Assembly: GCA_017649745.1 (NCBI GenBank)
Contig: JAGCGE010000331.1
Span: forward strand, 1-11,692
From: Clostridiales bacterium
GTDB taxonomy: Bacteria; Bacillota_A; Clostridia; Saccharofermentanales; Saccharofermentanaceae
Length of the DNA: 11,692 nt
Direction: 5' to 3'
In this document: piece after piece, positions 1 through 11,692 of the stretch
How the letters are laid out: each line of letters starts with the position of its first letter
Numbering within the stretch: the first letter of the stretch is position 1
Notes under the pieces: model-generated
The model's input: the letters and a program-made list of their open reading frames with translations, nothing else
What the model was told of the DNA's origin: nothing
Database searches by the model: none
Program-made: the position numbers and the translations under genes

Positions 1-468
1 CCACTCATCATGTGCAGTCGGAATAAGAACTGCCTTTTTGCCGATCTCCTTATGACCGAAATACGTTGTGTAATAAAGATATGTTAAGAAAACAAAGCAA
101 TCGAAGTTGTCCTTGTTTTCGCGAAGCCAGGTTATAAGAGCAGGAGTCTCAGGACCTTGAAGTCTCATCCATTCTTCAAGCTCTTCTACGGAATGCTCAC
201 CGACAGACATCTGAGAAGAATATCTGTTAAATACTTCCTGGTTACGCTCGTTTACGACAGGAAATCTGTGGACCTTTATACCGTTGATAATGTCGAGGTC
301 ATTCTCGTATTCGTTCTTCCATGTGACATAGTCGATCGCTTTTGTTGTTGCGACTTCGACTTCGTGATCGGTAAGAGATGCAACATGCTCGGCAAGCTGC
401 TTGGCATGAACTTCCGCTCCGCCGTTTACTTCGTCACCGTATCTTTGTACAACAAAACAAATTCTCAT
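1..468 (-). CDS. GT4-type glycosyltransferase, N-terminal 156 residues (3' end outside window)
   Basis: An open frame begins with ATG at 468-466 and runs without a stop to the first base of the window, giving 156 residues. The ATG overlaps the TGA of the preceding gene (ATGA, 465-468). An AAAGGTGA ribosome site lies just upstream. The protein starts with the GT-B donor/acceptor fold pattern MRICFVVQRYG, then NGGAE at residues 15-19, GIKVHRFPV near residue 69, and PTAHDE near the visible end. These are typical of the N-terminal half of GT4-family glycosyltransferases. The catalytic EX7E motif would lie beyond the edge, so activity cannot be judged. It resembles the N-terminal half of the enzyme at 2318-3508 (GGAE, GIKV.RFPV, P..HDE in the same order), so the two are probably paralogs. 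The expected role is cytoplasmic addition of a sugar, perhaps rhamnose from GDP-D-rhamnose, to the polymer. Donor and linkage are not readable from sequence. Confidence 0.88.
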   Translation of the reverse strand, partial: MRICFVVQRYGDEVNGGAEVHAKQLAEHVASLTDHEVEVATTKAIDYVTWKNEYENDLDIINGIKVHRFPVVNERNQEVFNRYSSQMSVGEHSVEELEEWMRLQGPETPALITWLRENKDNFDCFVFLTYLYYTTYFGHKEIGKKAVLIPTAHDEW

Positions 469-1550
469 AATCTCTCACCTTTGATAAATCTTTGGATCTG
501 CTCCAGATAAAGAGCTGAGACTTTCTCATAGGAAAAGTCCTGAAGACGCTTGCTCTGACCTTCGATGATCTCTTCACGAAGCTTATCGTCATGAAGCACT
601 TCATGAAGCTTGAATGCCGCCTTCTTAAGATCAGTATTATCGATAAGTACACCGCTTCCTCCGAGTGTATCCGGAACAGCTGCATTAGCAGCCGCGAGAA
701 TCGGCTTATTGAAACACATTGCCTCAACGAGCGGAACACAGAAACCCTCATGCTCACTCATGGATACGAATGCATCTGCAACTTTATAATATGCAAGGAT
801 CGCAGGAAACGAGACTTGACCTGTGAAGACAACATCTTTATCAAGACCCAATACCGTTGCGTAATCCTTAAGACGCTTGTCATAGTTTTCGAGTCCTTTC
901 GGATTGCCGACTATGATAAGACGGATCTTGTCATCGTACATCTTCTTATAGTATGAAAGAAGCGAGATAAGATCTTCCTGTCTCTTGTTAGGCGTGATCC
1001 TTCCGACGAACACGATATTCTTCACTCCGTCAGAGTACTTGGATATTACGTCAGGATCAGGAGTCTTCTTGTAGTCTTCAAACGGTATCAGTATCGGCCT
1101 AATCGCCATGTCACACTTGTAGCCCATCGACTCAAGATCACGGCGGTTGTAATCAGATACGCAGAGGACTCCTTCGAAAGTTGAGTTAAGTCCTTCTGCC
1201 TCAGCGCGACCCTTGGAACAGAGGCGGGCTGTAAGACCTGAGTACTTGGCAAAGTACTTAGGCGGTGTGATGTTGTGATAGATAAGGAGCTTGCGTCCGC
1301 CGAACTCCTTGATCTTACGGTTAAGATCAGTTCCTGTCGAAAGATGATAGATCATGATATCGTCAGGCTGAAGCTTCGGAAGAGCATTGATCTCCTTGAC
1401 GCCCGGATTAGATGCAAGGCGCGTGTCTATATGCTCGGCATAAGTGTTGATCTTATAGCCGTTCTTATTCATCAGATCCATTATGGCGAGCGCGTCGTTA
1501 CTTACTGCATCACCGAAGGAAAGAGTTGTCAGTACCTGGAATAATCTCAT
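465..1550 (-). CDS. GT4-family glycosyltransferase
   Basis: The product has 361 residues and an intact GT-B layout. The N-terminal domain has IYHLSTGTDLN near 67-77 and a YHNITPP motif at 91-97. The C-terminal nucleotide-sugar domain has FVGRITPNKR at 181-190, IIVGNP at 212-217 and the EX7E pair E268/E276 in EHEGFCVPLVEAM. That combination marks family GT4 retaining enzymes. The start ATG overlaps the previous stop (ATGA, 1547-1550) and has GGAG about 10 bases upstream. Its own TGA overlaps the next ATG (465-468). The N-terminus differs from the other three transferases in the operon, lacking GGAE, so it probably forms a different linkage or acts on a different acceptor. It is likely a cytoplasmic or membrane-associated polymer-assembly enzyme. 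The exact donor is an inference from the gmd/rmd genes of the same operon. Confidence 0.92.
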   Translation of the reverse strand: MRLFQVLTTLSFGDAVSNDALAIMDLMNKNGYKINTYAEHIDTRLASNPGVKEINALPKLQPDDIMIYHLSTGTDLNRKIKEFGGRKLLIYHNITPPKYFAKYSGLTARLCSKGRAEAEGLNSTFEGVLCVSDYNRRDLESMGYKCDMAIRPILIPFEDYKKTPDPDVISKYSDGVKNIVFVGRITPNKRQEDLISLLSYYKKMYDDKIRLIIVGNPKGLENYDKRLKDYATVLGLDKDVVFTGQVSFPAILAYYKVADAFVSMSEHEGFCVPLVEAMCFNKPILAAANAAVPDTLGGSGVLIDNTDLKKAAFKLHEVLHDDKLREEIIEGQSKRLQDFSYEKVSALYLEQIQRFIKGERL

Positions 1551-1924
1551 AGCTCTGACTCCAGTTTACAGATCCTGGCCTCAAGGGCATTGATCCTGTT
1601 ATAGAGATTCTCGCGCTCTTTATAGAGCTTGAAAAGATGCAGGAGCGCCGTCGTGAACTTCGCATCTATATTATTCTGTGCTCCCACCATCGGATCGATA
1701 TAGAAAGCAGTGAACTTACGCACGATCTTACCTTTCTTTCCGATGTTGTTATATGATATTCCGCGATTGTTCCTAATGTAGTCAACGCAGTGCTTTATTG
1801 AGCCTGCCGTTCCCTCGTTCTGATACGAAAGAGGCACTGACTCGAAAGGCTCTACCTTAACATCAGGCAAAGTCGCTTTCGCTTCGTCATATCTCCTGTC
1901 GAGTTCGGATCTTACGTCAGTCAT
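1547..1924 (-). CDS. Small coiled-coil protein with basic amphipathic helix (paralog of the 1921-2325 product)
   Basis: The product has 125 residues and I do not recognise it as a named family. It has a polar N-terminal region with PLSY at 31-34 and VDYIRNN at 47-53, then a basic amphipathic stretch KKGKIVRKFTAFYIDPMV at 63-80, then AQNNID at 82-87. It ends in a heptad-like helix (about 97-125, INALEARICKLESEL) that should form a coiled coil. There is no signal peptide and no full membrane span. The next gene's product has the same order of elements: PLSF, IDYIS.N, basic helix, P..RQQNTLN, coiled coil. The coiled-coil methyltransferase at 3518-4681 has the helix, QN motif and coil. It is coupled at both ends by ATGA overlaps (1921-1924 and 1547-1550). 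I infer a membrane-surface scaffold for the glycosyltransferase or capping complex. No enzymatic motif is visible. Confidence 0.82.
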   Translation of the reverse strand: MTDVRSELDRRYDEAKATLPDVKVEPFESVPLSYQNEGTAGSIKHCVDYIRNNRGISYNNIGKKGKIVRKFTAFYIDPMVGAQNNIDAKFTTALLHLFKLYKERENLYNRINALEARICKLESEL

Positions 1925-2325
1925 GAGTTACCTCTCTTCTCTTCCAATGCCTTCACGCGCTTCTCGAGAAGTTCTGCTCTCTTCTTGAGCTCTTCGTTGT
2001 CGCTCTTGACCTCACCGATTGTCTCGGAGATCCTGTAATAATAGTAGTTCAATGTGTTTTGCTGTCTAACGATAGGAAGGACGAAAAATCCCGTGATCTT
2101 ACGGATCACCTTCTTAAAGAAGACTGCGATCTTGTTGCCAGGAAGCGGAGCATACGGCTGCACTTCGTAGTTATATGAGATATAGTCGATCGCCTCATCG
2201 AGGTCACCGTTTCTCTTGGTGGAATCGACATCCTTGAAAGACAGCGGCTCTTTGTCCTTGCCGCTTCTTACGATCTCGTCACGGATCTCCTCCATGATCT
2301 TTTCTATATCCACAGTGTTATCCAT
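1921..2325 (-). CDS. Small coiled-coil protein with basic amphipathic helix
   Basis: The product has 134 residues and no recognised named domain. An acidic/basic N-terminal helix (about 5-20) is followed by PLSF at 27-30 and IDYISYN at 46-52. A strongly basic amphipathic segment (FFKKVIRKITGFFVLPIV, 69-86) leads into RQQNTLNYYYY at 87-97. The C-terminal helix (about 100-131, ELLEKRVKALEEK) has coiled-coil spacing. The segment from the basic helix to the coil closely matches residues 79-113 of the methyltransferase at 3518-4681, where FIKKFIWKI and EQNTLN stand at the same spacing. At DNA level, 2047-2063 and 4373-4389 differ at one base of 17. The start ATG overlaps the upstream transferase by 8 bases and has a clear GGAGGG five bases before it. 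A role as membrane-bound partner of the methyltransferase is inferred. Confidence 0.84.
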   Translation of the reverse strand: MDNTVDIEKIMEEIRDEIVRSGKDKEPLSFKDVDSTKRNGDLDEAIDYISYNYEVQPYAPLPGNKIAVFFKKVIRKITGFFVLPIVRQQNTLNYYYYRISETIGEVKSDNEELKKRAELLEKRVKALEEKRGNS

Positions 2326-3508
2326 TTGTTCCCTCCGTACAGCGCTCGAAAAAATCGATATATTTCTTCGTTACTACATCCCAGTCAAAATGAGTCTTCA
2401 CATACTCATAACCGTTGATGCCCATCTGATCAGCGATGTCCTTATTATCTTTAATGTAATTTACGCAACCCTCGAAGTCAAAGTAGTTCTTAAAGTAAAG
2501 TCCGCCCTTTGATTCTATCGCGAAGTTCTTTGTTACCGCGCACTCCTCGCAAACGATAACAGGTCGCTTGCCGAGCCAGCTCTCCATGATGACAAGTGAG
2601 AAACTCTCGTTTTTCGACGGCTGGCACAAAAGAAGTGATGCAGCTTCCGCATCGATCTTATCCTGAAGATCCACAAAACCAAGATCAACGAAATGCTCAT
2701 TATTCGGAAGTTCGATGTTACCGCCTCCGATAAGGACAAGCTTCATATCACAAGGATTTCTCTTCAGATATTCGTCAAAATACTTAACTAACGTATGAAC
2801 ATTCTTGCCTTCGTCTTTTCGGCCGGCATAAAGGATAAAAGGCTCCTTGATGTTGAACTTCTCGCGAAATCTATCTGCGTCACCTGTAAGGCCGCAGTCT
2901 ACACCGATACCCATGACGATCTCGTTTACCTTGGAAAGATCGAAAAGTCTTCTCGTGAGATCCTGCTCAGGCTTAGCATTAAACACAAGACCCTTAACGT
3001 TCTCATAGACATCTTTCAAGATATCCATATGCGCATATGCTTCGTCGTGAAAACAAGGAATGACGACCGACTTAGAAGGACATACCATGATGCCGTTTAC
3101 AGTCGTTCCGAACATATAAGGGATGAATACGAAAAGACTGTAGTCGTCCTTATGCTGATCCATATACTCATAAAGCTTCGGGCTGTTGACCATCTCTTTG
3201 AAGAACACTTCCTGATCAGGAAGCTTAGGCACTCTGCCCCTCATGAGGATTCGGTTTACCCTGTCAAACTCAGCTGCATTACGCGTGCCTACAGGGAATC
3301 TGATCACCTTGATTCCGTCTTCTATCGTCTCGCCTTCCTTGTGGAAGTTAACGTTCCAGTCACTGTCGAACTGCTTGACGCAAGTAGTTAAGATCTCGAG
3401 TTCTACTCCTGCGGCATGAAGGTGCGAAGTAACACCGCGAAGCTCCATCTCGGCGCCTCCCGGAATGCTCTTGCCATACCACGGAACAACAAACCCAAGT
3501 TTCTTCAT
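2318..3508 (-). CDS. GT4-family glycosyltransferase
   Basis: The product has 396 residues and a complete GT-B enzyme layout. The N-terminal domain has GFVVPWYG at 5-12, PGGAEM at 16-21, GIKVIRFPVG near 65-74 and PCFHDEAY at 151-158. The C-terminal domain has LYAGRKDEGKN at 226-236, LVLIGGG near 257-263 and the EX7E pair E301/E309 in NESFSLVIMES. These features place it in family GT4. It starts 9 bases after the methyltransferase stop, with AGAGG six bases upstream of the ATG, and ends 8 bases inside the next gene. Its N-terminal half resembles that of the partial transferase at 1-468, which points to an ancient duplication with possible change of linkage. No signal peptide or membrane span is seen, so it should act at the cytoplasmic face. 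Use of GDP-D-rhamnose is inferred from gmd and rmd. Confidence 0.93.
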   Translation of the reverse strand: MKKLGFVVPWYGKSIPGGAEMELRGVTSHLHAAGVELEILTTCVKQFDSDWNVNFHKEGETIEDGIKVIRFPVGTRNAAEFDRVNRILMRGRVPKLPDQEVFFKEMVNSPKLYEYMDQHKDDYSLFVFIPYMFGTTVNGIMVCPSKSVVIPCFHDEAYAHMDILKDVYENVKGLVFNAKPEQDLTRRLFDLSKVNEIVMGIGVDCGLTGDADRFREKFNIKEPFILYAGRKDEGKNVHTLVKYFDEYLKRNPCDMKLVLIGGGNIELPNNEHFVDLGFVDLQDKIDAEAASLLLCQPSKNESFSLVIMESWLGKRPVIVCEECAVTKNFAIESKGGLYFKNYFDFEGCVNYIKDNKDIADQMGINGYEYVKTHFDWDVVTKKYIDFFERCTEGTNG

Positions 3509-3517
3509 GACTGCCTC

Positions 3518-4681
3518 TTACTTACGAGCTACGATAGCGTAATCGAGGCTGCCGTACATCTTATCTGAGAGTTTACTGATAGCCTCATTAACCTCATCGA
3601 GATTATCGATCGAAGCTGACTTTATCTCAGGGATCTTACCGTCTGCGACAGACTTATCTGAATAAACGATCTTAATATCACTAAAACCGACGAGCTTAGC
3701 AATATATTCAAGATAAGCAGGATGGATCGGCTTCTTGTGCGAAGGATCGATATAGAATGAATCTGTGAATACTGATACGCTTCCAGGATTCTTAGTCTCG
3801 AAAATACAATATCCGCCCGGCTTTAATGCTCTGTATGCTTCTCTGTAAAGTGTTATAACATCAGCATTGGAAAGATACTCGACAACCTGAGCCGAGAATA
3901 CTCCGCCGAGAGAATCAGGAGCGATATTCTTGATGTGGGAGATAGCATTTCCGTGCTGAACATCAAGACCCTTACGAAGACATCTGTTAACTGAAGGCTT
4001 GAACAGATCGATGCCGCCTGCCTTGATATCGTTCTCCTTCATGAGCTCTAAGAACTCGCCTCTGCCGCTTCCGATCTCAAGGATCGGTGCTTCCTGCTCC
4101 TTAAAGTAAGGAACGTAAACGGAGAGCTGTTCCTTAACAGCCTTCTCGTCGCCTCTGAAGTAGTCTTCGAACTGCTCATATTCAAAATCGGATAGGCCGT
4201 CATCGTTAGAGATGCCGAACTCATCCATGGCTCTTTGCATACTCTCGACCTTATTAGCAAGGTAGATATTCTGTGTGTTGAGCTTAACGATAGCATCACG
4301 GAGATTAACGATCTCAGCCTCATGCTCACCTCTCATCCTGTTAAGTTCGTTGATAGAAGCAACAAGATGGTGGTTCAATGTGTTCTGCTCAAGGAACATC
4401 GGACGGATGAGCTTAGCTCTGATCTTCCAGATGAACTTCTTGATGAAGTTACCGCCGAACTGTCTCTCGAGAGTCGTATCGATATGGGCATTTGCTTCAC
4501 CAAGCTCGATCCTTAATGCGGAATCTTCTCCGGTTACTGCATTCGATGCCAAGATAAGATCATCGAAAAGGCCCTTATAGCCGTCCTTTCCTGCCTCTGC
4601 CTCAGCAACAAGGCTCTGAACACGGACTTCCTTGTCTTCGATCTCGTTAATGATCTGGTCGACTTTTTCCTTAGTTTGCAT
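3518..4681 (-). CDS. Class I SAM-dependent methyltransferase with N-terminal amphipathic helix and coiled coil
   Basis: The product has 387 residues. The C-terminal half is a class I SAM methyltransferase: motif I ILEIGSGRGEF at 200-210, an acidic strand end GGIDLF at 222-227, VFSAQVVEYL near 261-270 and LKPGGYCIFET at 286-296. The N-terminal half has a basic amphipathic stretch (FIKKFIWKIRAKLIRPMF, 79-96), EQNTLNHH at 98-105 and a long helix with coiled-coil spacing (about 108-152). In E. coli WbdD, a methyltransferase/kinase with a coiled coil and membrane helices caps the polysaccharide and sets chain length. Here the kinase is absent and the coil precedes the catalytic domain. The likely role is methylation of the non-reducing chain end or of a rhamnose residue (inference). 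The start overlaps the upstream transferase by 11 bases, with AAAGGAG ten bases before the ATG. Confidence 0.9.
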   Translation of the reverse strand: MQTKEKVDQIINEIEDKEVRVQSLVAEAEAGKDGYKGLFDDLILASNAVTGEDSALRIELGEANAHIDTTLERQFGGNFIKKFIWKIRAKLIRPMFLEQNTLNHHLVASINELNRMRGEHEAEIVNLRDAIVKLNTQNIYLANKVESMQRAMDEFGISNDDGLSDFEYEQFEDYFRGDEKAVKEQLSVYVPYFKEQEAPILEIGSGRGEFLELMKENDIKAGGIDLFKPSVNRCLRKGLDVQHGNAISHIKNIAPDSLGGVFSAQVVEYLSNADVITLYREAYRALKPGGYCIFETKNPGSVSVFTDSFYIDPSHKKPIHPAYLEYIAKLVGFSDIKIVYSDKSVADGKIPEIKSASIDNLDEVNEAISKLSDKMYGSLDYAIVARK

Positions 4682-5726
4682 ACTTAAGAAGCTCCTTTAC
4701 CACATGATCCCAGGAGATGTGCATATCCCCTATCTTCTTCTTTGCATTCTCACCCATGGCGATCGCATTCTTCTCGTCTTCGCCAAGCTTATCCATAGCT
4801 TCAGCAATAGATTCGGAAGAAGGCTCACAGACGAATCCGTTCTTGCCGTTCTCGACGAACTCCAAAGGTCCGCCGCTGTCTGTTGCCGTTATTACTGGCT
4901 TTGATGAAGCCATTGCTTCAAGAGTTATATAACCGTAGTCCTCATCCTTAGGAATAAAGACAACACCTCTGCAGTTAGCATAAAGATCGATCTTCTCTTC
5001 CTGAGAAACGAAGTCGAAATACTTGACTCTGTCCTTAAGACCGAACTCTTCGATATTACGAAGGAGCTCTTCCTTAACGAGCGGTGTATCTGCGGCACCA
5101 ACTATATAGAGGTTAATGTTCGATTTTGTTTTCGCGAGGGCACGAAGAGCCAGGAACTGTCTCTTTGTGTGATTGATCCTGCTAGGCATGAGGAGGTAAT
5201 CCTTCGACTCCTTACAGTAGAACTTCTCCATGTCAGGGCATGGATGATAAAGAGGTGTGGACTCAAGTCCGCAGTACTTCTTAAGTCTCTTCGCTACGTT
5301 ACCGGAGTTCGCATAAACGTGCTTTGCCTCTGCGATATATTTAACATCGGCATTTGTGATAATATCCTTGATCCTAAGACCTTCAGCATCACCGTGAATG
5401 CTCGACAGGTCTGTATCGAAAAGATCGTATGCCTGTCTATGCTGATGCAAGATCCACATTACCTTGTTAGGGTGCGGGATAAGATAAGCAGGGAATTTCA
5501 TACCGATCGCGAGATCGATCTTACCTGCCCATGACTCACTTATATTAAGAAGTCTCATCGCAACAATGTGATCCTCTATCCTTGCGATAGGATTGTCATT
5601 GAACGGGATATTGATTATCTCGACTTCATGACCATGCTCTTCGAGAGCCTTACGGAGATTGTTGACGTGCATCTCCGCTCCGCCTCTGACAAATGGGATC
5701 TGTGTCGTTAGCAATGCTATCTTCAT
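4671..5726 (-). CDS. GT4-family glycosyltransferase
   Basis: The product has 351 residues with GT-B architecture. The N-terminal domain begins MKIALLTTQIPFVRGGAEMH, with GGAEMH at 15-20 as in many GT4 enzymes. The C-terminal domain has LMPSRINHTKRQ at 179-190, LYIVGAAD at 206-213 and the EX7E pair E262/E270 in EDYGYITLEAMASSKPVI. TDSGGP at 282-287 is typical of the nucleotide-sugar site. It starts 4 bases past the wzt stop codon, preceded by an AGAGAGGA ribosome site, and ends within the methyltransferase gene (overlap 4671-4681). As the first transferase after the transporter genes it may start or extend the rhamnan, but this position-based guess is weak. No membrane span is visible. Confidence 0.93.
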   Translation of the reverse strand: MKIALLTTQIPFVRGGAEMHVNNLRKALEEHGHEVEIINIPFNDNPIARIEDHIVAMRLLNISESWAGKIDLAIGMKFPAYLIPHPNKVMWILHQHRQAYDLFDTDLSSIHGDAEGLRIKDIITNADVKYIAEAKHVYANSGNVAKRLKKYCGLESTPLYHPCPDMEKFYCKESKDYLLMPSRINHTKRQFLALRALAKTKSNINLYIVGAADTPLVKEELLRNIEEFGLKDRVKYFDFVSQEEKIDLYANCRGVVFIPKDEDYGYITLEAMASSKPVITATDSGGPLEFVENGKNGFVCEPSSESIAEAMDKLGEDEKNAIAMGENAKKKIGDMHISWDHVVKELLKYAN

Positions 5727-5729
5727 GTC

Positions 5730-7397
5730 TTATCCTCTCTTATCGTCATCCGGCAAATGCCAGATCTGATCTATCTTTACGATGCCGCTGTCTTCTCTAG
5801 GATCTACCATCTCGAAAGATGTTGCTTCCTTAAAGCAATCGACAGCTTCGAAGTCTTTATTCTGAATCATAAGGTCAGCGAAATACTTGCCCTTAAGGAG
5901 ATCTACCTTAGGCATCTCGATCTCGAAGACCCCGTCTTTCATTATATCAAAGCGCTTGATACCGGCGAGCTTTGTATTGGTTCCGTAGCAGTATGTTCCG
6001 TCCTCTTTGAAAATGCCAACACCAAAGATCGCATCTTCGATCTTCTTGTCAGCAGTATATGTCACACGGAATGTGATCTTAGAACCAGTGTCAAAGCTCT
6101 TCTTCTCTTCACCGTCCTTATCAAGGACCTGAACCTTAGTGATCTTCGCTTCACCGCTACCGGAGTGTTTCTCTTCTTCGGTAAGACCGCCCTTTGCTTC
6201 GACAAAAGGCTTAACTCTTACTTCCACGCACTTATTGACGAACTCTTCTTTTCTCGTGAAGCTTAATACGAGCTCTTCTCTGGTAACGCCCTGTTCAAGA
6301 GAAGAAAGCCAGTAGATCTTGCCTTCCTTATCTGAAGGTCTGCCCATAAATGCCTTATATGCTCTCTCTATGAATTCAGAATCAGAAAGATCGTATTCTT
6401 CCATCTCTTCATTAATGAAGAATGCGACACCTGCCTGCTCACCTGTCATGTGATAGTTGGCTAGCTCCTTCGCCCAATACTGACGGCCCTCTTCTTCGAG
6501 CTTACGACCGAGAGCAGCATTAGTCAGATGGTCCACGAATTCAAGTATCTGTTCGTTAGGAGCGATGATCTTTGGAGCAGTCTCTTTCTTTTTCTCCTCA
6601 GCCTTCTTGTCCGCTTCCTTAGCTTCTTTCTTTGCCTTTTCTTTCTTCCTCTGCTCGTTACGCAGACGGCTCATGTAATCCATGTACTCAGGATGGATCT
6701 CGATCGGAAATCCGTCAGCAACGATCTTGCCGCCGTTGATCCAGATGGTCCTGTCACAGATAGCTTCGATCTGATCGAGAGAGTGCGATACGATAACGAT
6801 CGTTGTACCTTTCTCCTTGATCTCCACGAGCTTGTCAAAACATTTAGCCTGGAAGTTCGCGTCACCTACTGCGAGGATCTCGTCAATGAGAAGAACGTCA
6901 GCATCAACGTTGATCGCAACAGAGAACGCAAGTCTCATGTACATACCTGAAGAATATGTTCTTACAGGGTTGTCTATGAATTCCTCGAGTTCCGAAAAAG
7001 CTATGATATCTTCCAGACGCGCATCTATCTCTGCCTTTGAAAGTCCGAAGATCGCTGCGTTGGTATATATATTTTCTCTACCGCTCATGTCAGGGTGGAA
7101 ACCCGCACCGAGCTCGATAAGGCTCGATACACGACCCTTGACCTCGATCGTACCCTTATCAGGATAGAGGATCCTTGTCATTATCTTAAGGAGTGTCGAC
7201 TTACCGCAACCGTTATGACCGATAAGACCAACTGCCTGGCCTTTTTCGATAGAAAGGGAGATGTCGTTTAAGACAATTCTGTCCTCGTGTTTATTGCGGT
7301 TCTTGAAGATAACTCTCTCCTTGAAGCTCTGGCCCTTATCAAAGTAGACCTTGAACTGCTTAGTAAGATTCTTGATTACGATAGAATATTCCGGCAT
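5730..7397 (-). CDS. wzt: Polysaccharide ABC exporter ATPase (Wzt-like) with inserted DUF4214-type domain
   Basis: The 555-residue product powers export of a finished glycan through Wzm. The nucleotide-binding domain (1-240) has Walker A GHNGCGKST at 60-68, the Wzt/TagH-type signature YSSGM at 148-152, Walker B VLLIDE at 168-173 and H-loop H205. A Lys/Glu-rich linker follows (248-275). Residues about 284-400 form a DUF4214-type domain closely matching the C-terminus of the surface protein at 10235-11692. Residues about 412-550 look like the beta-sandwich Wzt_C domain, which in known systems binds the capped chain end. Typical two-domain Wzt proteins are near 400-430 residues, so the extra length is explained by the inserted domain. 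It starts 1 base after wzm with GGAGGA eight bases before the ATG. The ATPase function is certain; the role of the insert is unknown. Confidence 0.95.
   Translation of the reverse strand: MPEYSIVIKNLTKQFKVYFDKGQSFKERVIFKNRNKHEDRIVLNDISLSIEKGQAVGLIGHNGCGKSTLLKIMTRILYPDKGTIEVKGRVSSLIELGAGFHPDMSGRENIYTNAAIFGLSKAEIDARLEDIIAFSELEEFIDNPVRTYSSGMYMRLAFSVAINVDADVLLIDEILAVGDANFQAKCFDKLVEIKEKGTTIVIVSHSLDQIEAICDRTIWINGGKIVADGFPIEIHPEYMDYMSRLRNEQRKKEKAKKEAKEADKKAEEKKKETAPKIIAPNEQILEFVDHLTNAALGRKLEEEGRQYWAKELANYHMTGEQAGVAFFINEEMEEYDLSDSEFIERAYKAFMGRPSDKEGKIYWLSSLEQGVTREELVLSFTRKEEFVNKCVEVRVKPFVEAKGGLTEEEKHSGSGEAKITKVQVLDKDGEEKKSFDTGSKITFRVTYTADKKIEDAIFGVGIFKEDGTYCYGTNTKLAGIKRFDIMKDGVFEIEMPKVDLLKGKYFADLMIQNKDFEAVDCFKEATSFEMVDPREDSGIVKIDQIWHLPDDDKRG
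6204..6539 (-). other. DUF4214-type domain inside the Wzt-like ATPase
   Basis: Residues 287-398 of the ATPase align without a gap to the last 112 residues of the surface protein (10238-10573). By hand count about 60 positions are identical. The shared blocks include AALGR, MTGEQAG, the EEME.Y.LSD stretch, FM.RPSD, GK..WL, and EFV.KCVE.R. The DNA for GEQAG is identical over 14 bases (6430-6443 and 10464-10477). The domain lies between the ATPase core and the Wzt_C-like region, after a charged linker. Confidence 0.85.
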
Positions 7398-7398
7398 A

Positions 7399-8181
7399 TC
7401 AAAGTTCCTCCGCGAAGTGCTTCTTAAGCTTATTGAATACGAGGAAGCCTATGATGAGGAAGAATATTCCCAATCCCAAAGCCTCGAGAAGTGTCGACAT
7501 GTCAGGTACCGATGACTCATAAAGAATAGTCCTGTATGCATTGATGACAGGTGTCATCGGATTACAGTGAAGCATTACATACTTGAGTTTCGCAGGAAGA
7601 GCATCGAATCTCGCCTTCGGATAAACAACAGGAGTAAGGTACATCCAAAGCATGGAAAGGATTCCCAGGATGTGCTCGAGATCCCTGAAATAAACTGTCA
7701 AAGCCGAAGTGATCATAGCGATTCCGAGCGCTAGGATATATTCGATGATCATGATTATCGGAAGATATGCAACTCCCAAAGGTTGTACCGGAGTTCTCGA
7801 GAAGAGAACGACAGCAAATACTACTACAAAGCAGAAGAGCATATTAACAAAACAGCTTGTAACATATGATATCGGCAGAACTTCTCTCGGGAAGTAGATC
7901 TTCTTAACAAGATCCTTCTGCGATATGACAGCCGTCGATCCGCCTGTGATCGAAGACTGGAAGAAGATCCACGGAATAAGCGCAACTGTAAGGAACAAGT
8001 AGTATTTGTCAGTACCGCCTGGGATGATATATGTAAATACAAATGAATAAACGAGTATCTGAAACAGAGGGTTCAGGAATGTCCACAAAAAACCAAGGAC
8101 CGATCCCTTGTATCGGCCTCTTAAGTCCTTACGGACAAGACTGACTATCATCTGACGATAAGCCCAGATCTCTTTTAACAT
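7399..8181 (-). CDS. wzm: Polysaccharide ABC-2 exporter permease (Wzm-like)
   Basis: The 260-residue integral membrane protein forms the channel for glycan export with the ATPase encoded next. The N-terminus has LVRKDLRGRYKGSVLGFLW (15-33), a signature of the Wzm/TagG/RgpC group. Six hydrophobic segments lie near 28-53, 58-78, 105-127, 138-163, 168-188 and 230-250. FPREVLP at 97-103, YFRDLEHIL at 164-172 and NPMTPVINAYR at 207-217 are also family-typical. I chose ATG at 8181, which shares one base with the rmd stop (TGATG), with GGAAGGAA upstream. A TTG one codon earlier is open but is a poorer start. The six spans and the adjacency to wzt make the assignment firm. The identity of the cargo glycan is inferred. 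Confidence 0.95.
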   Translation of the reverse strand: MLKEIWAYRQMIVSLVRKDLRGRYKGSVLGFLWTFLNPLFQILVYSFVFTYIIPGGTDKYYLFLTVALIPWIFFQSSITGGSTAVISQKDLVKKIYFPREVLPISYVTSCFVNMLFCFVVVFAVVLFSRTPVQPLGVAYLPIIMIIEYILALGIAMITSALTVYFRDLEHILGILSMLWMYLTPVVYPKARFDALPAKLKYVMLHCNPMTPVINAYRTILYESSVPDMSTLLEALGLGIFFLIIGFLVFNKLKKHFAEEL

Positions 8182-9101
8182 CAATTATTTCCTTCCCTAA
8201 AAGACTCGAGAACGTCCTTGATCGTCTCGAAGATATCGCACTTCGCTTCGAAGCCTGTAGCCTTCTGAAGCTTAGTAATATCGGCTCTTACGTGAACAAG
8301 CTTGTCATCGTCGAGCCTCGAAGGCAAAGTTACCTTAGATGAAGCCAATGGGCTCATCTCGACTAACTTACCTATAATGTCTCTGATATAGAAACTCTTG
8401 CCTGAGCCTACGTTATAGATCTCGCCGCTCTCGCCTTTCTCAGCGATGAGCCTGTAGGCTCTTACTACATCTCTTACATCCGAAAAGTCGCGCCATGAAT
8501 CGAGGTTGCCAAATGTAAAAGTATCGATCTTGCCATTTTCCAGATCAACGATCCTCTGGCAATAATCGGTTACGACAAATCCTGTCTTCTGACCAGGACC
8601 TATATGGTTGAAAGATCTTGTCATGATAACGTCGAGATCATATCTTGACGCCATCATCTTAACGATCTCTTCCTGAGTGTTTTTCGAGATGTCGTATGGT
8701 GATGTGTTATTAAGAGGTGTCTCTTCCGAGATAACACCGTCAACAGCCTTCGAACCGTCATACTGATTCGCTGAACCGATGAGGATGACTCTTGTTTTCG
8801 GGCAGATCTTACGGACTGCCTCAAGGATGTTGACCGAAATGTCGATATTAAGGTGCATGGTAAGAAGGACCTTCTCCCATGAGATGCTCGGAGCAGCCTG
8901 TCCTGCAAGATTAAAGATGATATCAGGAGAAGCTTCCCTGATGATCTCTTCGCTCAGCACAGGGTCCAACATATCGACCTTACGAACGCTCGGATCGGAA
9001 GTGACCGCATCGACAGAGAAGACCTCGTAATCATGAGATTCGAGTTCCTGTCTTAAATATTTACCGGCAAAGCCGTTCGCACCAATCAGAAGTACTCTCA
9101 T
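8181..9101 (-). CDS. rmd: GDP-6-deoxy-D-mannose reductase (GDP-4-keto-6-deoxy-D-mannose to GDP-D-rhamnose)
   Basis: The 306-residue product is an extended short-chain dehydrogenase. The NAD(P)-binding GANGFAG is at 7-13, the active-site serine segment LIGSANQY is at 107-114 and the catalytic YDISK is at 136-140. SFNHIGPGQ at 163-171 is characteristic of Rmd proteins. It reduces the 4-keto sugar made by Gmd to GDP-D-rhamnose in the cytoplasm. It follows gmd with a one-base TGATG overlap and precedes the exporter, as expected for a D-rhamnan operon. GDP-L-fucose synthase is less likely because the NHIGPGQ motif and overall form fit Rmd. A GDP-6-deoxy-D-talose synthase cannot be excluded from sequence alone. 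The start at 9101 was preferred to a TTG one codon earlier. Confidence 0.88.
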   Translation of the reverse strand: MRVLLIGANGFAGKYLRQELESHDYEVFSVDAVTSDPSVRKVDMLDPVLSEEIIREASPDIIFNLAGQAAPSISWEKVLLTMHLNIDISVNILEAVRKICPKTRVILIGSANQYDGSKAVDGVISEETPLNNTSPYDISKNTQEEIVKMMASRYDLDVIMTRSFNHIGPGQKTGFVVTDYCQRIVDLENGKIDTFTFGNLDSWRDFSDVRDVVRAYRLIAEKGESGEIYNVGSGKSFYIRDIIGKLVEMSPLASSKVTLPSRLDDDKLVHVRADITKLQKATGFEAKCDIFETIKDVLESFREGNN

Positions 9102-10126
9102 CAAGCAAGTCCGTTCTCTTTTTTAACGATCTCCAGGTCGTTTCTGACCATTCTCTTTACGAGTTCATTGAAGTCGATCTCGCGCTTCCAGCCAAGGACT
9201 GTCTCAGCCTTTGTAGGATCACCGATGAGGAGATCTACTTCTGCAGGACGGAAGAACTTAGGGTTAACCTTAACAAGTACCTTACCTGTCTTCTTATCAA
9301 CGCCGACTTCGTCAACGCCTTCACCCTGGAATTCAAGATCGATACCGAGTTCCTTAAATGCAACTTCACAGAACTCACGGACTGTTCTTGTCTCGTTAGT
9401 TGCTACAACATAATCGTCAGGCTTATCTGCCTGGAGCATGAGCCACATAGCTCTTACATAATCCTTTGAATGACCCCAGTCACGCTTACTGCTTAAGTTA
9501 CCGAGTTCGAGGTGATCCTCAAGACCGAGGCTGATCTTAGCAGCAGTGTTGGTGATCTTTCTTGTAACGAACTCAAGTCCGCGTCTTTCTGACTCGTGGT
9601 TGAAAAGGATACCGGAGCAAGCGAATACTCCGTAGCTCTCTCTATAGTTCTTTGTTATCCAGTGGCCGTAGAGCTTAGCTACGCCATATGGGGATCTAGG
9701 ATAGAAAGGAGTTGTCTCACACTGAGGAACTGCCTGAACAAGACCGAACATCTCAGATGTGGATGCCTGATAGAACCTAGCTTCAGGCTTAACTGTTCTA
9801 ATTGCTTCGAGCATATTAGTAACACCGATAGCATCGATATTAGCTGTTGCCAAAGGCTGCTCCCATGATGTTGCTACAAAAGACTGTGCAGCAAGGTTAT
9901 ATACTTCGTCAGCCTGTGATATCTTCATCGCAGAGATAAGAGAGATCGGGTCTGTCATATCTGCATAGATGAATGTAACTTTACCTACCAAGTGGTTGGA
10001 ATTACCGTAGTCTGCTACGCTCTTTCTTCTGACGATACCGTAAACCTCGTAACCTTTCTCAAGAAGAAGTTCTGCAAGGTAAGAACCGTCCTGGCCTGTA
10101 ATTCCTGTTATCAATGCTCTTTTCAT
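9101..10126 (-). CDS. gmd: GDP-mannose 4,6-dehydratase
   Basis: The 341-residue enzyme converts GDP-D-mannose to GDP-4-keto-6-deoxy-D-mannose. The cofactor motif TGITGQDG is at 7-14. ASTSEMFG at 121-128 and SPYGVAK at 145-151 supply the catalytic Thr123, Glu125, Tyr147 and Lys151, each offset by nine from the E. coli Gmd residues as I recall them. NHESERRG at 176-183 and FVTRKI at 186-191 are also typical. The start is ATG at 10126, giving the standard MKRALITG beginning, with a strong GGAGGGG (10141-10135) eight bases upstream. An in-frame TTG at 10150 is rejected because it lies upstream of the ribosome site. It is the first gene after the promoter at 10161-10195 and its stop shares one base with the rmd start. 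All catalytic residues are present, so it should be active. Confidence 0.97.
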
Positions 10127-10134
10127 TAGAAATA

Positions 10135-10141
10135 CCCCTCC
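10135..10141 (-). promoter_or_regulatory. Ribosome binding site of gmd
   Basis: GGAGGGG read on the minus strand lies eight bases before the ATG at 10126. It decides the gmd start, because the alternative TTG at 10150 lies upstream of it. Confidence 0.85.
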
Positions 10142-10144
10142 GGG

Positions 10145-10194
10145 AAACAAATCTTAGTAAACAACTTATTATAGCATAACGAAAAGATTTGTTT
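10145..10194. repeat. Perfect 11-bp inverted repeat flanking the promoter -10 box
   Basis: AAACAAATCTT at 10145-10155 is the exact reverse complement of AAGATTTGTTT at 10184-10194, with 28 bases between the arms. The inner segment contains the extended -10 element, and the right arm overlaps the -35 candidate. Pairing does not continue on either side. It could be a split operator for a dimeric regulator. In a transcript reading through from the upstream gene it could form a weak AT-rich stem. A small invertible segment is possible but would be unusually short. Confidence 0.6.
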
Positions 10195-10195
10195 A
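10161..10195 (-). promoter_or_regulatory. Extended -10 promoter driving the gmd-rmd-wzm-wzt operon
   Basis: On the minus strand a perfect TATAAT (10173-10168) is preceded by TGC (10176-10174), which makes an extended -10 element. A weak -35 candidate TAAACA (10195-10190) lies 16 bases upstream and matches the consensus at four of six positions. The predicted transcription start is near 10161, giving a leader of about 35 bases before the gmd ATG. This is the only clear promoter seen in the window. All genes from gmd to the left edge overlap or are spaced by no more than 9 bases and can be served by it. Read-through from the surface protein gene is also possible, since no convincing terminator separates them. 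Confidence 0.65.
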
Positions 10196-10199
10196 ACCA

Positions 10200-10216
10200 A
10201 TGACTGACACCGTCAT
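10200..10216 (-). other. Short hairpin in the surface-protein/gmd intergenic region
   Basis: ATGAC and GTCAT (10200-10204 and 10212-10216) can pair with a 7-base loop. It lies 19 bases after the stop of the surface protein gene. With only five pairs and no following U-run it does not qualify as a convincing Rho-independent terminator. The rest of the 108-bp intergenic region holds the promoter, the inverted repeat and the gmd ribosome site. Confidence 0.3.
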
Positions 10217-10234
10217 GAGGGCTTTGTTGTGCAT

Positions 10235-11692
10235 TTAGTATGGAAGTATCCTCGATTCCACACATTTATCGACAAACTCAGGGCTTCTCGTGAATCCGTA
10301 TACGACGTCTTTTCGAGAAAGACCACTCTTCATACTGTCGAGCCAGAACTTCTTACCGCCTGCATCAGAAGGACGATCCATGAATGTCATGTAAAGACGC
10401 TCGAGGTACTCCTCGTCGGAGAGATTGTAGCCTTCCATCTCTTCGCTCAGGAAGAAGAATGCGCCTGCCTGCTCACCAGTCATATCGAAGTTAGAAAGAA
10501 GTCCGGCCCAATAATCAAGTCCGCCCTGATCATATGTACGGCCGAGAGCTGTCGTGTAAAGTCTCTCAACAAATCCGTATGTAAGAGAAGTAGGCTTGAT
10601 ATTAACAGTCGGCTTAACGACTCCGCCTGAACGGATGCCGTACTGAGCACATGTATCAGCCCACTCCTGAGACATGATGAAGGAATTAGCGACAGCTTCC
10701 CTGCTCATCGCACCTGATGTAAGCTGCGACATCCAGTAATCCTTACCTGCCTGATCAGGGTCACGGTTGAAGAACGTCTTGTAAAGGATATTGAGGAACT
10801 CGTCATTGCTCGTGTTCCTGTCCTTGAACTCCTGGCTCGTAATGAACAGATTAGCTGCTTCTGCACCCGTATTACTGAAGCTGTAGAGATTATCTGTCCA
10901 CCAGTCGGCACCCTGCTTCTCAGGTTCACGTCCGAGAACGTTCCTGTAAAGTCTCTCGACAAATCCTCTGATCTGCTCCTTGCCGTCAGAGACAGGTGCA
11001 GGAGTAGGAGCCTGAGTAACTGTTGGACTCGGAGAAGGTGAAGGAGTCGGAGGAGGATTCTTGATCTTAAACGTGATATCCTTCGTTCCCTTGTAATTGC
11101 CGATACCCGTGACCGTAATAGTCGCTGTTCCGGCTTTAACATTATTCTTGTAAGTAAGCTTGTAGTCTGTTCCTTCCTTAAGAGCGAGATTACCGTTCTT
11201 CACAGTCAGTGAAGGCTTGATCTCCTTACCGGTGTAAGTCTGGTCTGATATTGAAGAGTAGCTAAGACCTGTGACATTCTTGGCAACGATATTAAAGTAG
11301 ATAGTGAAGGAACCTTCATAGTTACCTATACCCTTAACTTCGATATAAGCTTTTCCGATCGCCTTGTTATCACCGAATGAGACCTTATAATCGGTATTCT
11401 CCTTCATGGCAACAGTACCGTACTTAACTGATACGGAAGGACAGATATAACCGCCTGTATATTCTCTGTCACCCAATGAGTAAGAAGAGAAATCAGAGAT
11501 GTCTTTCTTATTGATAGTAAATGTCTTCGTGATCGTTCCCTTATAGTTGCCCTTACCTGTTACTTTCACGGTAGCAGTTCCGACATTGACGTTACCTGAA
11601 TAAGTTACTTCATACTCGCTTGTCGTAAGATCCTGCTCACCATCAGTAAGCTTAAGGTCGAATGTGATCGAACTACCCGTAAATGTTACAGG
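10235..11692 (-). CDS. Surface protein with Ig-like repeats and two C-terminal DUF4214-type domains (5' end outside window)
   Basis: The frame is open from the right edge to TAA at 10237-10235, giving 485 visible residues; the true start lies beyond the window. A GTG at 11569 is internal to a repeat and is not a start. The visible domain order is: three repeats of 75 residues (1-61 partial, 62-136, 137-211) with conserved G-x-GNY[KE]G; a Pro/Ser/Thr linker (about 212-235); and two DUF4214-type domains (about 244-354 and 374-485). The chain ends within the second domain (ILPY), with no LPXTG, membrane tail or S-layer-homology module visible. The repeats are of a type common in secreted clostridial proteins, so export is expected although the signal peptide is not in view. 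The second DUF4214 copy resembles the one in the Wzt-like ATPase more than it resembles its own neighbour. The function is unknown; adhesion, glycan binding or being a glycosylated acceptor are possible. Confidence 0.88.
   Translation of the reverse strand, partial: PVTFTGSSITFDLKLTDGEQDLTTSEYEVTYSGNVNVGTATVKVTGKGNYKGTITKTFTINKKDISDFSSYSLGDREYTGGYICPSVSVKYGTVAMKENTDYKVSFGDNKAIGKAYIEVKGIGNYEGSFTIYFNIVAKNVTGLSYSSISDQTYTGKEIKPSLTVKNGNLALKEGTDYKLTYKNNVKAGTATITVTGIGNYKGTKDITFKIKNPPPTPSPSPSPTVTQAPTPAPVSDGKEQIRGFVERLYRNVLGREPEKQGADWWTDNLYSFSNTGAEAANLFITSQEFKDRNTSNDEFLNILYKTFFNRDPDQAGKDYWMSQLTSGAMSREAVANSFIMSQEWADTCAQYGIRSGGVVKPTVNIKPTSLTYGFVERLYTTALGRTYDQGGLDYWAGLLSNFDMTGEQAGAFFFLSEEMEGYNLSDEEYLERLYMTFMDRPSDAGGKKFWLDSMKSGLSRKDVVYGFTRSPEFVDKCVESRILPY
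10238..10573 (-). other. DUF4214-type domain, C-terminal copy of the surface protein
   Basis: This covers the last 112 residues of the protein, from FVERLYTTALGR to ILPY. It matches the ATPase insert (6204-6539) at about 60 of 112 positions without gaps. It matches the first copy (10631-10963) at about 43, with one small gap. The counts were made by eye. Confidence 0.82.
10631..10963 (-). other. DUF4214-type domain, first copy of the surface protein
   Basis: It starts FVERLYRNVLGREP and contains FNRDPDQAGKDYW and SFIMSQEW, which follow the LYR..LGR.P...G..YW pattern of DUF4214. It follows the proline-rich linker directly. Confidence 0.82.
11060..11692 (-). repeat. Three tandem 75-residue (225-bp) Ig-like repeats, first one cut by the window edge
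   Basis: The units lie at 11692-11510 (partial), 11509-11285 and 11284-11060. The asparagine of the GNY[KE]G motif recurs at exactly 75-residue spacing (codons at 11548, 11323 and 11098). Each unit carries a Y/F-TG element, a D or E-Y tract before the GNY strand, and ends in a TF-I or YFNI strand, suggesting a beta-sandwich fold. More copies probably lie beyond the right edge. The units have diverged at the amino-acid level, so this is an old duplication. Confidence 0.8.

Follow-up and report, generated by a model that had tools for sequence, protein, structure and literature searches.

An 11,692-nucleotide stretch of the genome of a Clostridiales bacterium (contig JAGCGE010000331.1; the whole stretch is hereafter called the window) carries a polysaccharide-export operon whose Wzt-like ATPase contains a DUF4214 domain, closely similar to the end of a DUF4214 protein encoded next to the operon. 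In the genomes compared, richness in DUF4214 goes together with exporter ATPases of the window's subtype, and in most of the rich genomes the gene of a secreted-type DUF4214 protein lies near the exporter. We tentatively propose, with confidence a little short of even, that DUF4214 proteins are anchored to the polymer of the window-type exporter, and that the domain inserted in the ATPase is a captured docking domain. DUF4214 is a domain without assigned function, and the link to one exporter subtype provides a concrete candidate partner for it; if true, it offers a way in which cellulases and other enzymes could be displayed on the cells of these Clostridia, where the exported polymer may help to hold proteins. 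The portions of the DUF4214 literature covered by our search contain no mention of such a link.

The DUF4214 domain in the export ATPase and in the neighbouring protein

The window is occupied by a minus-strand operon encoding GDP-mannose 4,6-dehydratase (GMD), a second sugar dehydratase/epimerase, an ABC-2 permease, the Wzt-like ATPase, glycosyltransferases, a methyltransferase and two small coiled-coil-like open reading frames (ORFs), with the gene of the DUF4214 protein directly upstream. The ATPase, the neighbouring protein and their domains are located as follows (ABC, ATP-binding cassette; HMM, hidden Markov model; pLDDT, predicted local distance difference test score):

5730..7397, minus strand: Wzt-like export ATPase of 555 amino acids, in the order ABC, charged linker, DUF4214, Wzt_C (Pfam)
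6876..7271, minus strand: ABC_tran domain, ATPase residues 43-174 (Pfam)
6204..6548, minus strand: DUF4214 insert of copy-2 type, ATPase residues 284-398 (Pfam, BLASTP, tree, structure model with pLDDT 91.9)
5775..6173, minus strand: Wzt_C domain, ATPase residues 409-541 (Pfam)
10235..11692, minus strand: neighbouring DUF4214 protein with repeats, a Pro-rich linker and two C-terminal DUF4214 copies, its 5' end outside the window (Pfam, BLASTP)
10646..10972, minus strand: DUF4214 copy 1 of the neighbouring protein, residues 241-349 (HMM match)
10238..10573, minus strand: DUF4214 copy 2 of the neighbouring protein, HMM match at residues 374-477, the module reaching residue 485 (HMM, BLASTP)

The ATPase is of the Wzt type, matching PF00005 with 82.4 bits and PF14524 with 100.4 bits, both above the cut-off, and its gene adjoins that of an ABC-2 permease (ORF 7399-8184; PF01061, 62.2 bits). 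An earlier note on this DNA had described a DUF4214 insert between the ABC and Wzt_C domains and its gapless alignment with the end of the neighbouring protein. Both statements were confirmed: the insert scores 67.1 bits with DUF4214 (PF13946) at a Pfam cut-off of 23.2, and BLASTP aligned ATPase residues 278-398 with residues 365-485 of the neighbour without a gap, at 62 of 121 identities (51%, E 1e-40). The match is far beyond chance and lies exactly where it had been placed. The neighbouring protein as a whole scores 181.2 bits with DUF4214, in four stretches; with its copy 1 the insert shares 45 identities over 128 positions with gaps (E 6e-21), and the DNA of insert and neighbour is identical at 156 of 233 positions (67%). 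Designation of the neighbour as a surface protein rests on its repeats and its relatives, because the ORF leaves the window at position 11692 and the signal peptide is out of view; one of the relatives, P0032, starts with a signal-peptide-like stretch.

Co-occurrence and gene linkage of DUF4214 with the exporter subtype

Two partly overlapping sets of genomes (sharing G056, G201 and G260 at least) were surveyed, namely a family draw of 397 genomes, Lachnospiraceae by its central genome G001, and a class draw of 336 genomes. Genomes with at least 14 scored DUF4214 matches in the family draw, or at least 16 in the class draw, were regarded as rich, these numbers being the ceilings of the respective searches. 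The exporter subtype (subtype A) was set as an ATP-binding domain similar to that of the window at E 1e-85; this definition was made with the window in mind, after the rich genomes had shown weaker Wzt_C scores, and was then counted over all 397 genomes. In the family draw, DUF4214 was detected in 22 genomes, 12 of which are rich, and the window-like ATP-binding domain in 45. The exporter subtype is present in all 12 rich genomes, versus 33 of the 385 others (Fisher P 1e-12). The co-occurrence of DUF4214 proteins with the exporter, which the earlier note had proposed to test for ATPases of the window's own domain order, is supported for the subtype. When any DUF4214 match at E 1e-3 was counted, the proportions were 18/22 versus 27/375, and the class draw gave 3 of 4 rich genomes versus 11 of 332 others. 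Any Wzt_C protein was also considered as the partner and turned out to be a weak candidate (11/12 versus 229/385); the signal lies in the window-like subtype. On a tree of the subtype-A loci of 49 genomes and that of the window (family matches G013 and G245 and class matches G407, G516, G539, G562 and G725 lie outside it), DUF4214 richness is scattered, with 11 changes versus a mean of 13 after shuffling and values as low in 55 of 500 shuffles; hence, the tie between DUF4214 and the exporter is not the history of one lineage.

A DUF4214 ORF was found within the 11-20 kb exporter stretch of 12 of the 14 rich exporter-bearing genomes (G056, G070, G071, G089, G109, G113, G172, G219, G292, G294, G313 and G400). 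Eleven of these 12 linked ORFs are of the secreted type, as judged from architecture, versus 1.5-2.8 expected with gene numbers per genome estimated from match counts; the probability of at least 11 is 7e-7 by the most cautious estimate. In three of the genomes the contig ends near the exporter gene, and their linked ORFs are, respectively, small (G219, E 5e-7), cut by the contig end to 136 amino acids (G294) and matched by a partial DUF4214 domain (G313, E 1.5e-6, 26.3 bits by Pfam). Non-rich genomes contributed 35 exporter loci, a part of which are short; secreted-type DUF4214 proteins are missing from all 35, and in those of G019, G027 and G308 an enzyme or a small ORF contains the domain. 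No DUF4214 gene lies near the Wzt loci of other subtype in G113 (L080) and G056 (L112).

Origin and rarity of the insert

Among 326 distinct DUF4214 copies, eight outscore the local copy 2 when compared with the ATPase insert, and all eight are of the copy-2 type; identity to the insert is 54% for the local copy 2 and 58% for the copy of protein P0124. In a tree of 107 copies, which has only 109 columns and half of its inner branches unresolved, the ATPase copy is nested in the copy-2 group (Shimodaira-Hasegawa-like approximate likelihood ratio support 99) and paired with P0124 (91), not with the local copy, while its end branch measures 0.7 versus a median of 0.2. The tree thus shows that the insert descends from a copy-2 domain. 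Pairing of the ATPase and surface copies by locus, for which the earlier note had suggested a domain tree, was rejected both by score rank and by the tree, the local copy not being the closest kin of the ATPase copy; P0124 itself may or may not stem from the same organism. The similarity of the insert to the adjacent gene is one shared across the copy-2 family and does not make the two a dedicated pair.

ABC, DUF4214 and Wzt_C occur together only in the window's own protein, P0001, among the 120 listed of 509 relatives, and the protein cluster of P0001 has three members on four contigs. The next nine listed relatives are 417-439 amino acids long, show 61-63% identity over 40-42% of the searched part and are devoid of the insert. 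The insert is likewise absent from all 49 other subtype-A ATPases examined, and a search with the insert alone for proteins of the ABC-DUF4214-Wzt_C order retrieved the window's own protein only (1 of 117 candidates). A contig scan yielded three distant loci, whose ATPases are too short for the insert; the genomes concerned gave no match when searched for DUF4214. The expectation that this domain order is a repeated design was, consequently, not upheld. The named relatives of the ATPase are Clostridia. Of the whole genomes found, G720 is the closest (82% in the ATP-binding domain); its syntenic operon has a 447-amino-acid ATPase without DUF4214. The DUF4214 copies of G720 compared with the insert, i.e., those in nine DUF4214 stretches and in the operon stretch, show at most 41% identity to it, versus 54-58% for the best members of the DUF4214 family collected here. 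A young capture in the lineage of the window, after its split from that of G720, would be the simplest reading of these data.

Exporter ATPases of 552 amino acids in G033 (L130) and 544 amino acids in G382 (L121) are also above the usual length and have no DUF4214 match.

Other carriers of DUF4214

The two-copy DUF4214 module was found in 115 proteins, behind varied passengers. In G071, a cellulase of glycoside hydrolase family 5 with six DUF4214 stretches, possibly a cell-bound enzyme, is encoded upstream of the exporter (L116:3179-5929). The same locus encodes a glycosyltransferase of family GT4 with four DUF4214 stretches (L116:13573-15444) and an exporter ATPase of 266 amino acids without Wzt_C (L116:9633-10433), and cap recognition may have moved there to another protein. 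In G027 and G019, the next gene downstream of that of the ATPase encodes a methyltransferase with half a DUF4214 domain (in G019 at 20.9 bits, below the cut-off of 23.2), and small ORFs with a half domain occur in the loci of G109, G219 and G308. As these enzymes and small ORFs show, the window is not the only place where likely cytoplasmic proteins carry DUF4214.

Proposed role of DUF4214 and alternative explanations

In the explanation that we favour, secreted proteins of these Clostridia would be anchored by their tandem C-terminal DUF4214 module. As co-occurrence and linkage suggest, the cellular partner of the module, contacted directly or via a complex, would be the polysaccharide that the window-type ABC-2/Wzt exporter delivers. 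The varied passengers of the two-copy module and the occurrence of DUF4214 in a glycosyltransferase and in methyltransferases of such loci speak for this explanation too. In the lineage of the window, the exporter ATPase would have acquired one copy 2, placed between the ATP-binding and the cap-binding domain. The most likely role of this captured copy is docking at the complex for synthesis and export, in contact with the growing polymer or with a further protein of the operon; having since changed under a different constraint, it would not be a plain second copy of the surface anchor. In the solved O-antigen exporter of Aquifex aeolicus, the carbohydrate- and nucleotide-binding domains hold the polymer cap between them (PMC9445017), so that a domain placed there could sense or present the polymer. 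This Wzm/Wzt system resembles the window in the order of ABC and Wzt_C, the adjoining ABC-2 permease and the methyltransferase of the operon; unlike it, the window's ATPase has the additional DUF4214 between the ATP-binding and cap-binding domains. For the outer side, the N-terminal domain of Caulobacter RsaA offers a works-like model, being described as a 249-residue helical domain that holds a surface protein on an exported N-acetyl-perosamine/mannose polysaccharide (PMC6978808). RsaA was also considered as a relative of DUF4214; its fold scores are weak, and kinship is not claimed. DUF4214 of segmented filamentous bacteria has been named a likely surface-anchoring domain (PMC12780176).

A number of observations weigh against anchoring to the polymer and docking of the insert. 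Of the 45 exporter-bearing genomes, 33 are not DUF4214-rich, and, because the genomes are not independent, the co-occurrence P values are rough. Two rich genomes, G720 and G654, have no DUF4214 ORF within about 10 kb on either side of the exporter, and in G089 a second Wzt locus, of other subtype, likewise has the gene of a two-copy DUF4214 protein no more than about 5 kb away (L077:14700-16214). G626 has 41 DUF4214 matches and, unlike the window, no window-type exporter ATPase detectable at E 1e-25, which indicates that DUF4214 is not always in need of this exporter; its size (1.5 Mb, essentially one contig) and G+C content (about 28% in two stretches) probably place it among the segmented filamentous bacteria. 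The insert itself keeps 31 of 41 positions with a conservation of 90% or more among 116 copy-2 domains of surface proteins, each of which keeps at least 35. Compared with 366 other copies, including some from overlapping loci and not all non-redundant, it has Thr for Tyr292 (Tyr in 365), Lys for Ser383 (Ser in 356) and Asn for Ser329 (Ser in 348). Finally, the predicted DUF4214 fold is that of phycobilisome linkers and points to protein-protein linkers.

The stretches of G626 are L149-L151, and part of L150 reads N.

Leu346, present in 323 of the 366 copies (Ala in 9), is Ala in the insert. In the two DUF4214 copies of the G071 glycosyltransferase, Leu346 and the Ser residues at positions 329 and 383 are retained, and position 292 is Phe in one and Tyr in the other. 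We read the insert as a folded domain under changed constraint. As to the fold, the wider DUF4214 profile matched phycobilisome linkers among solved structures and did not match RsaA; the insert alone gave no match, the close-family profile gave chance-level matches only, and Foldseek matched neither model at E of at most 0.001. The phycobilisome linker domain (PF00427) is like DUF4214 in predicted fold and, via divergent copies, in sequence, whereas proteins, place and partners differ; in the insert only PF13946, and not PF00427, was listed at E up to 1, a likeness and not membership. The earlier note had suggested one ligand on both sides of the membrane. That DUF4214 proteins and the exporter subtype belong together is supported; a simply shared ligand is weakened, because near-invariant residues are missing from the ATPase copy and the domain is predicted to fold like a protein-protein linker.

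The linker-like fold makes scaffolding a serious rival to sugar binding: DUF4214 would bind no sugar, the modules outside holding each other or a wall protein, and those inside assembling a synthesis/export complex of the ATPase, glycosyltransferase, methyltransferase and small coiled-coil proteins. We consider this somewhat unlikely. At the other end, DUF4214 might be a polysaccharide-recognition module throughout, holding enzymes and adhesins on the Wzm/Wzt polymer outside and handling the polymer inside, on glycosyltransferases, methyltransferases and, in the lineage of the window, the export ATPase; this seems rather unlikely. The insert could also be a neutral or nearly neutral domain capture without shared function, only the surface module being of importance. 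Its restriction to one protein cluster (among the 120 listed of 509 relatives), its long branch and the loss of near-invariant residues agree with such a capture, against which speak the open frame, the pLDDT of 91.9, the 31 of 41 conserved positions kept and the three cluster members on four contigs; we would give it the same low standing as scaffolding.

Covalent joining of the exported polymer to DUF4214 proteins, as in surface-layer (S-layer) glycosylation, with DUF4214 marking or presenting the protein to a ligase, appears improbable, although known systems lend it some ground. In Gram-positives, S-layer glycosylation (slg) clusters are reported to combine wzm/wzt with a Wzy_C-type transferase and a methyl cap (PMC2943079), and in C. 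difficile SLCT-11 a glycan locus is reported near slpA (PMC6254364); there, too, the biology of surface proteins is tied to a Wzm/Wzt-type operon, with the glycan bound covalently to protein. In our set, Wzy_C ligase genes, paired and of O-antigen-ligase type, occur in the exporter loci of G313 (L085) and G172 (L081), and initiating transferases (PF02397) in G070, G292, G294 and G113. Wzy_C was, however, seen in these two loci only, among 19 Pfam-scanned proteins of rich loci, most membrane proteins of the other loci being unscanned; a narrow Wzy_C model from three sequences matched four ORFs, which is no evidence of absence elsewhere. None of the ten Pfam-scanned ORFs of the window, which is cut at both ends, is a Wzy_C-type transferase. 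Covalent attachment would, moreover, leave DUF4214 inside cytoplasmic enzymes unexplained. Quite improbable, in our view, is that a common lifestyle or gene-rich surface region is all that connects DUF4214 with the exporter, with no functional link: the many exporter-bearing genomes without DUF4214, and G626 with DUF4214 and without the exporter, would fit, but the counts of 12/12 versus 33/385, the DUF4214 ORF nearby in 12 of 14 genomes and the scatter of richness on the exporter tree argue otherwise.

Gene content of the window

The remaining genes of the operon are the following:

9101..10150, minus strand: GMD (TIGR01472, 479.5 bits, cut-off 415)
8181..9104, minus strand: NAD-dependent sugar epimerase/dehydratase, possibly a GDP-6-deoxy-D-mannose reductase (PF01370 and PF16363; below every NCBIfam cut-off)
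7399..8184, minus strand: ABC-2 permease, Wzm-like (PF01061, 62.2 bits)
4671..5726, minus strand: glycosyltransferase, Glycos_transf_1 (Pfam)
3518..4681, minus strand: methyltransferase with a presumable role in chain-end capping (Pfam methyltransferase families)
2318..3508, minus strand: glycosyltransferase, Glycos_transf_1 (Pfam)
1547..2325, minus strand: two small coiled-coil-like ORFs, 1921-2325 and 1547-1924 (homologues in other loci; no Pfam family above cut-off)
465..1550, minus strand: glycosyltransferase, Glycos_transf_1 (Pfam)
1..468, minus strand: ORF cut by the window end, probably a glycosyltransferase (homologues in the operons of G720, G654 and G636)

The earlier note had taken the exported polymer for a rhamnan. 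For the GDP-D-rhamnose pathway, the GMD step is borne by an enzyme that passes TIGR01472; the reductase step lacks such backing, the second enzyme staying below every NCBIfam cut-off. Neither a composition profile of the window nor a scan for promoters and terminators yielded anything that was put to use. Homologues of the first small coiled-coil-like ORF (1921-2325) recur 3' of Wzt in many loci.

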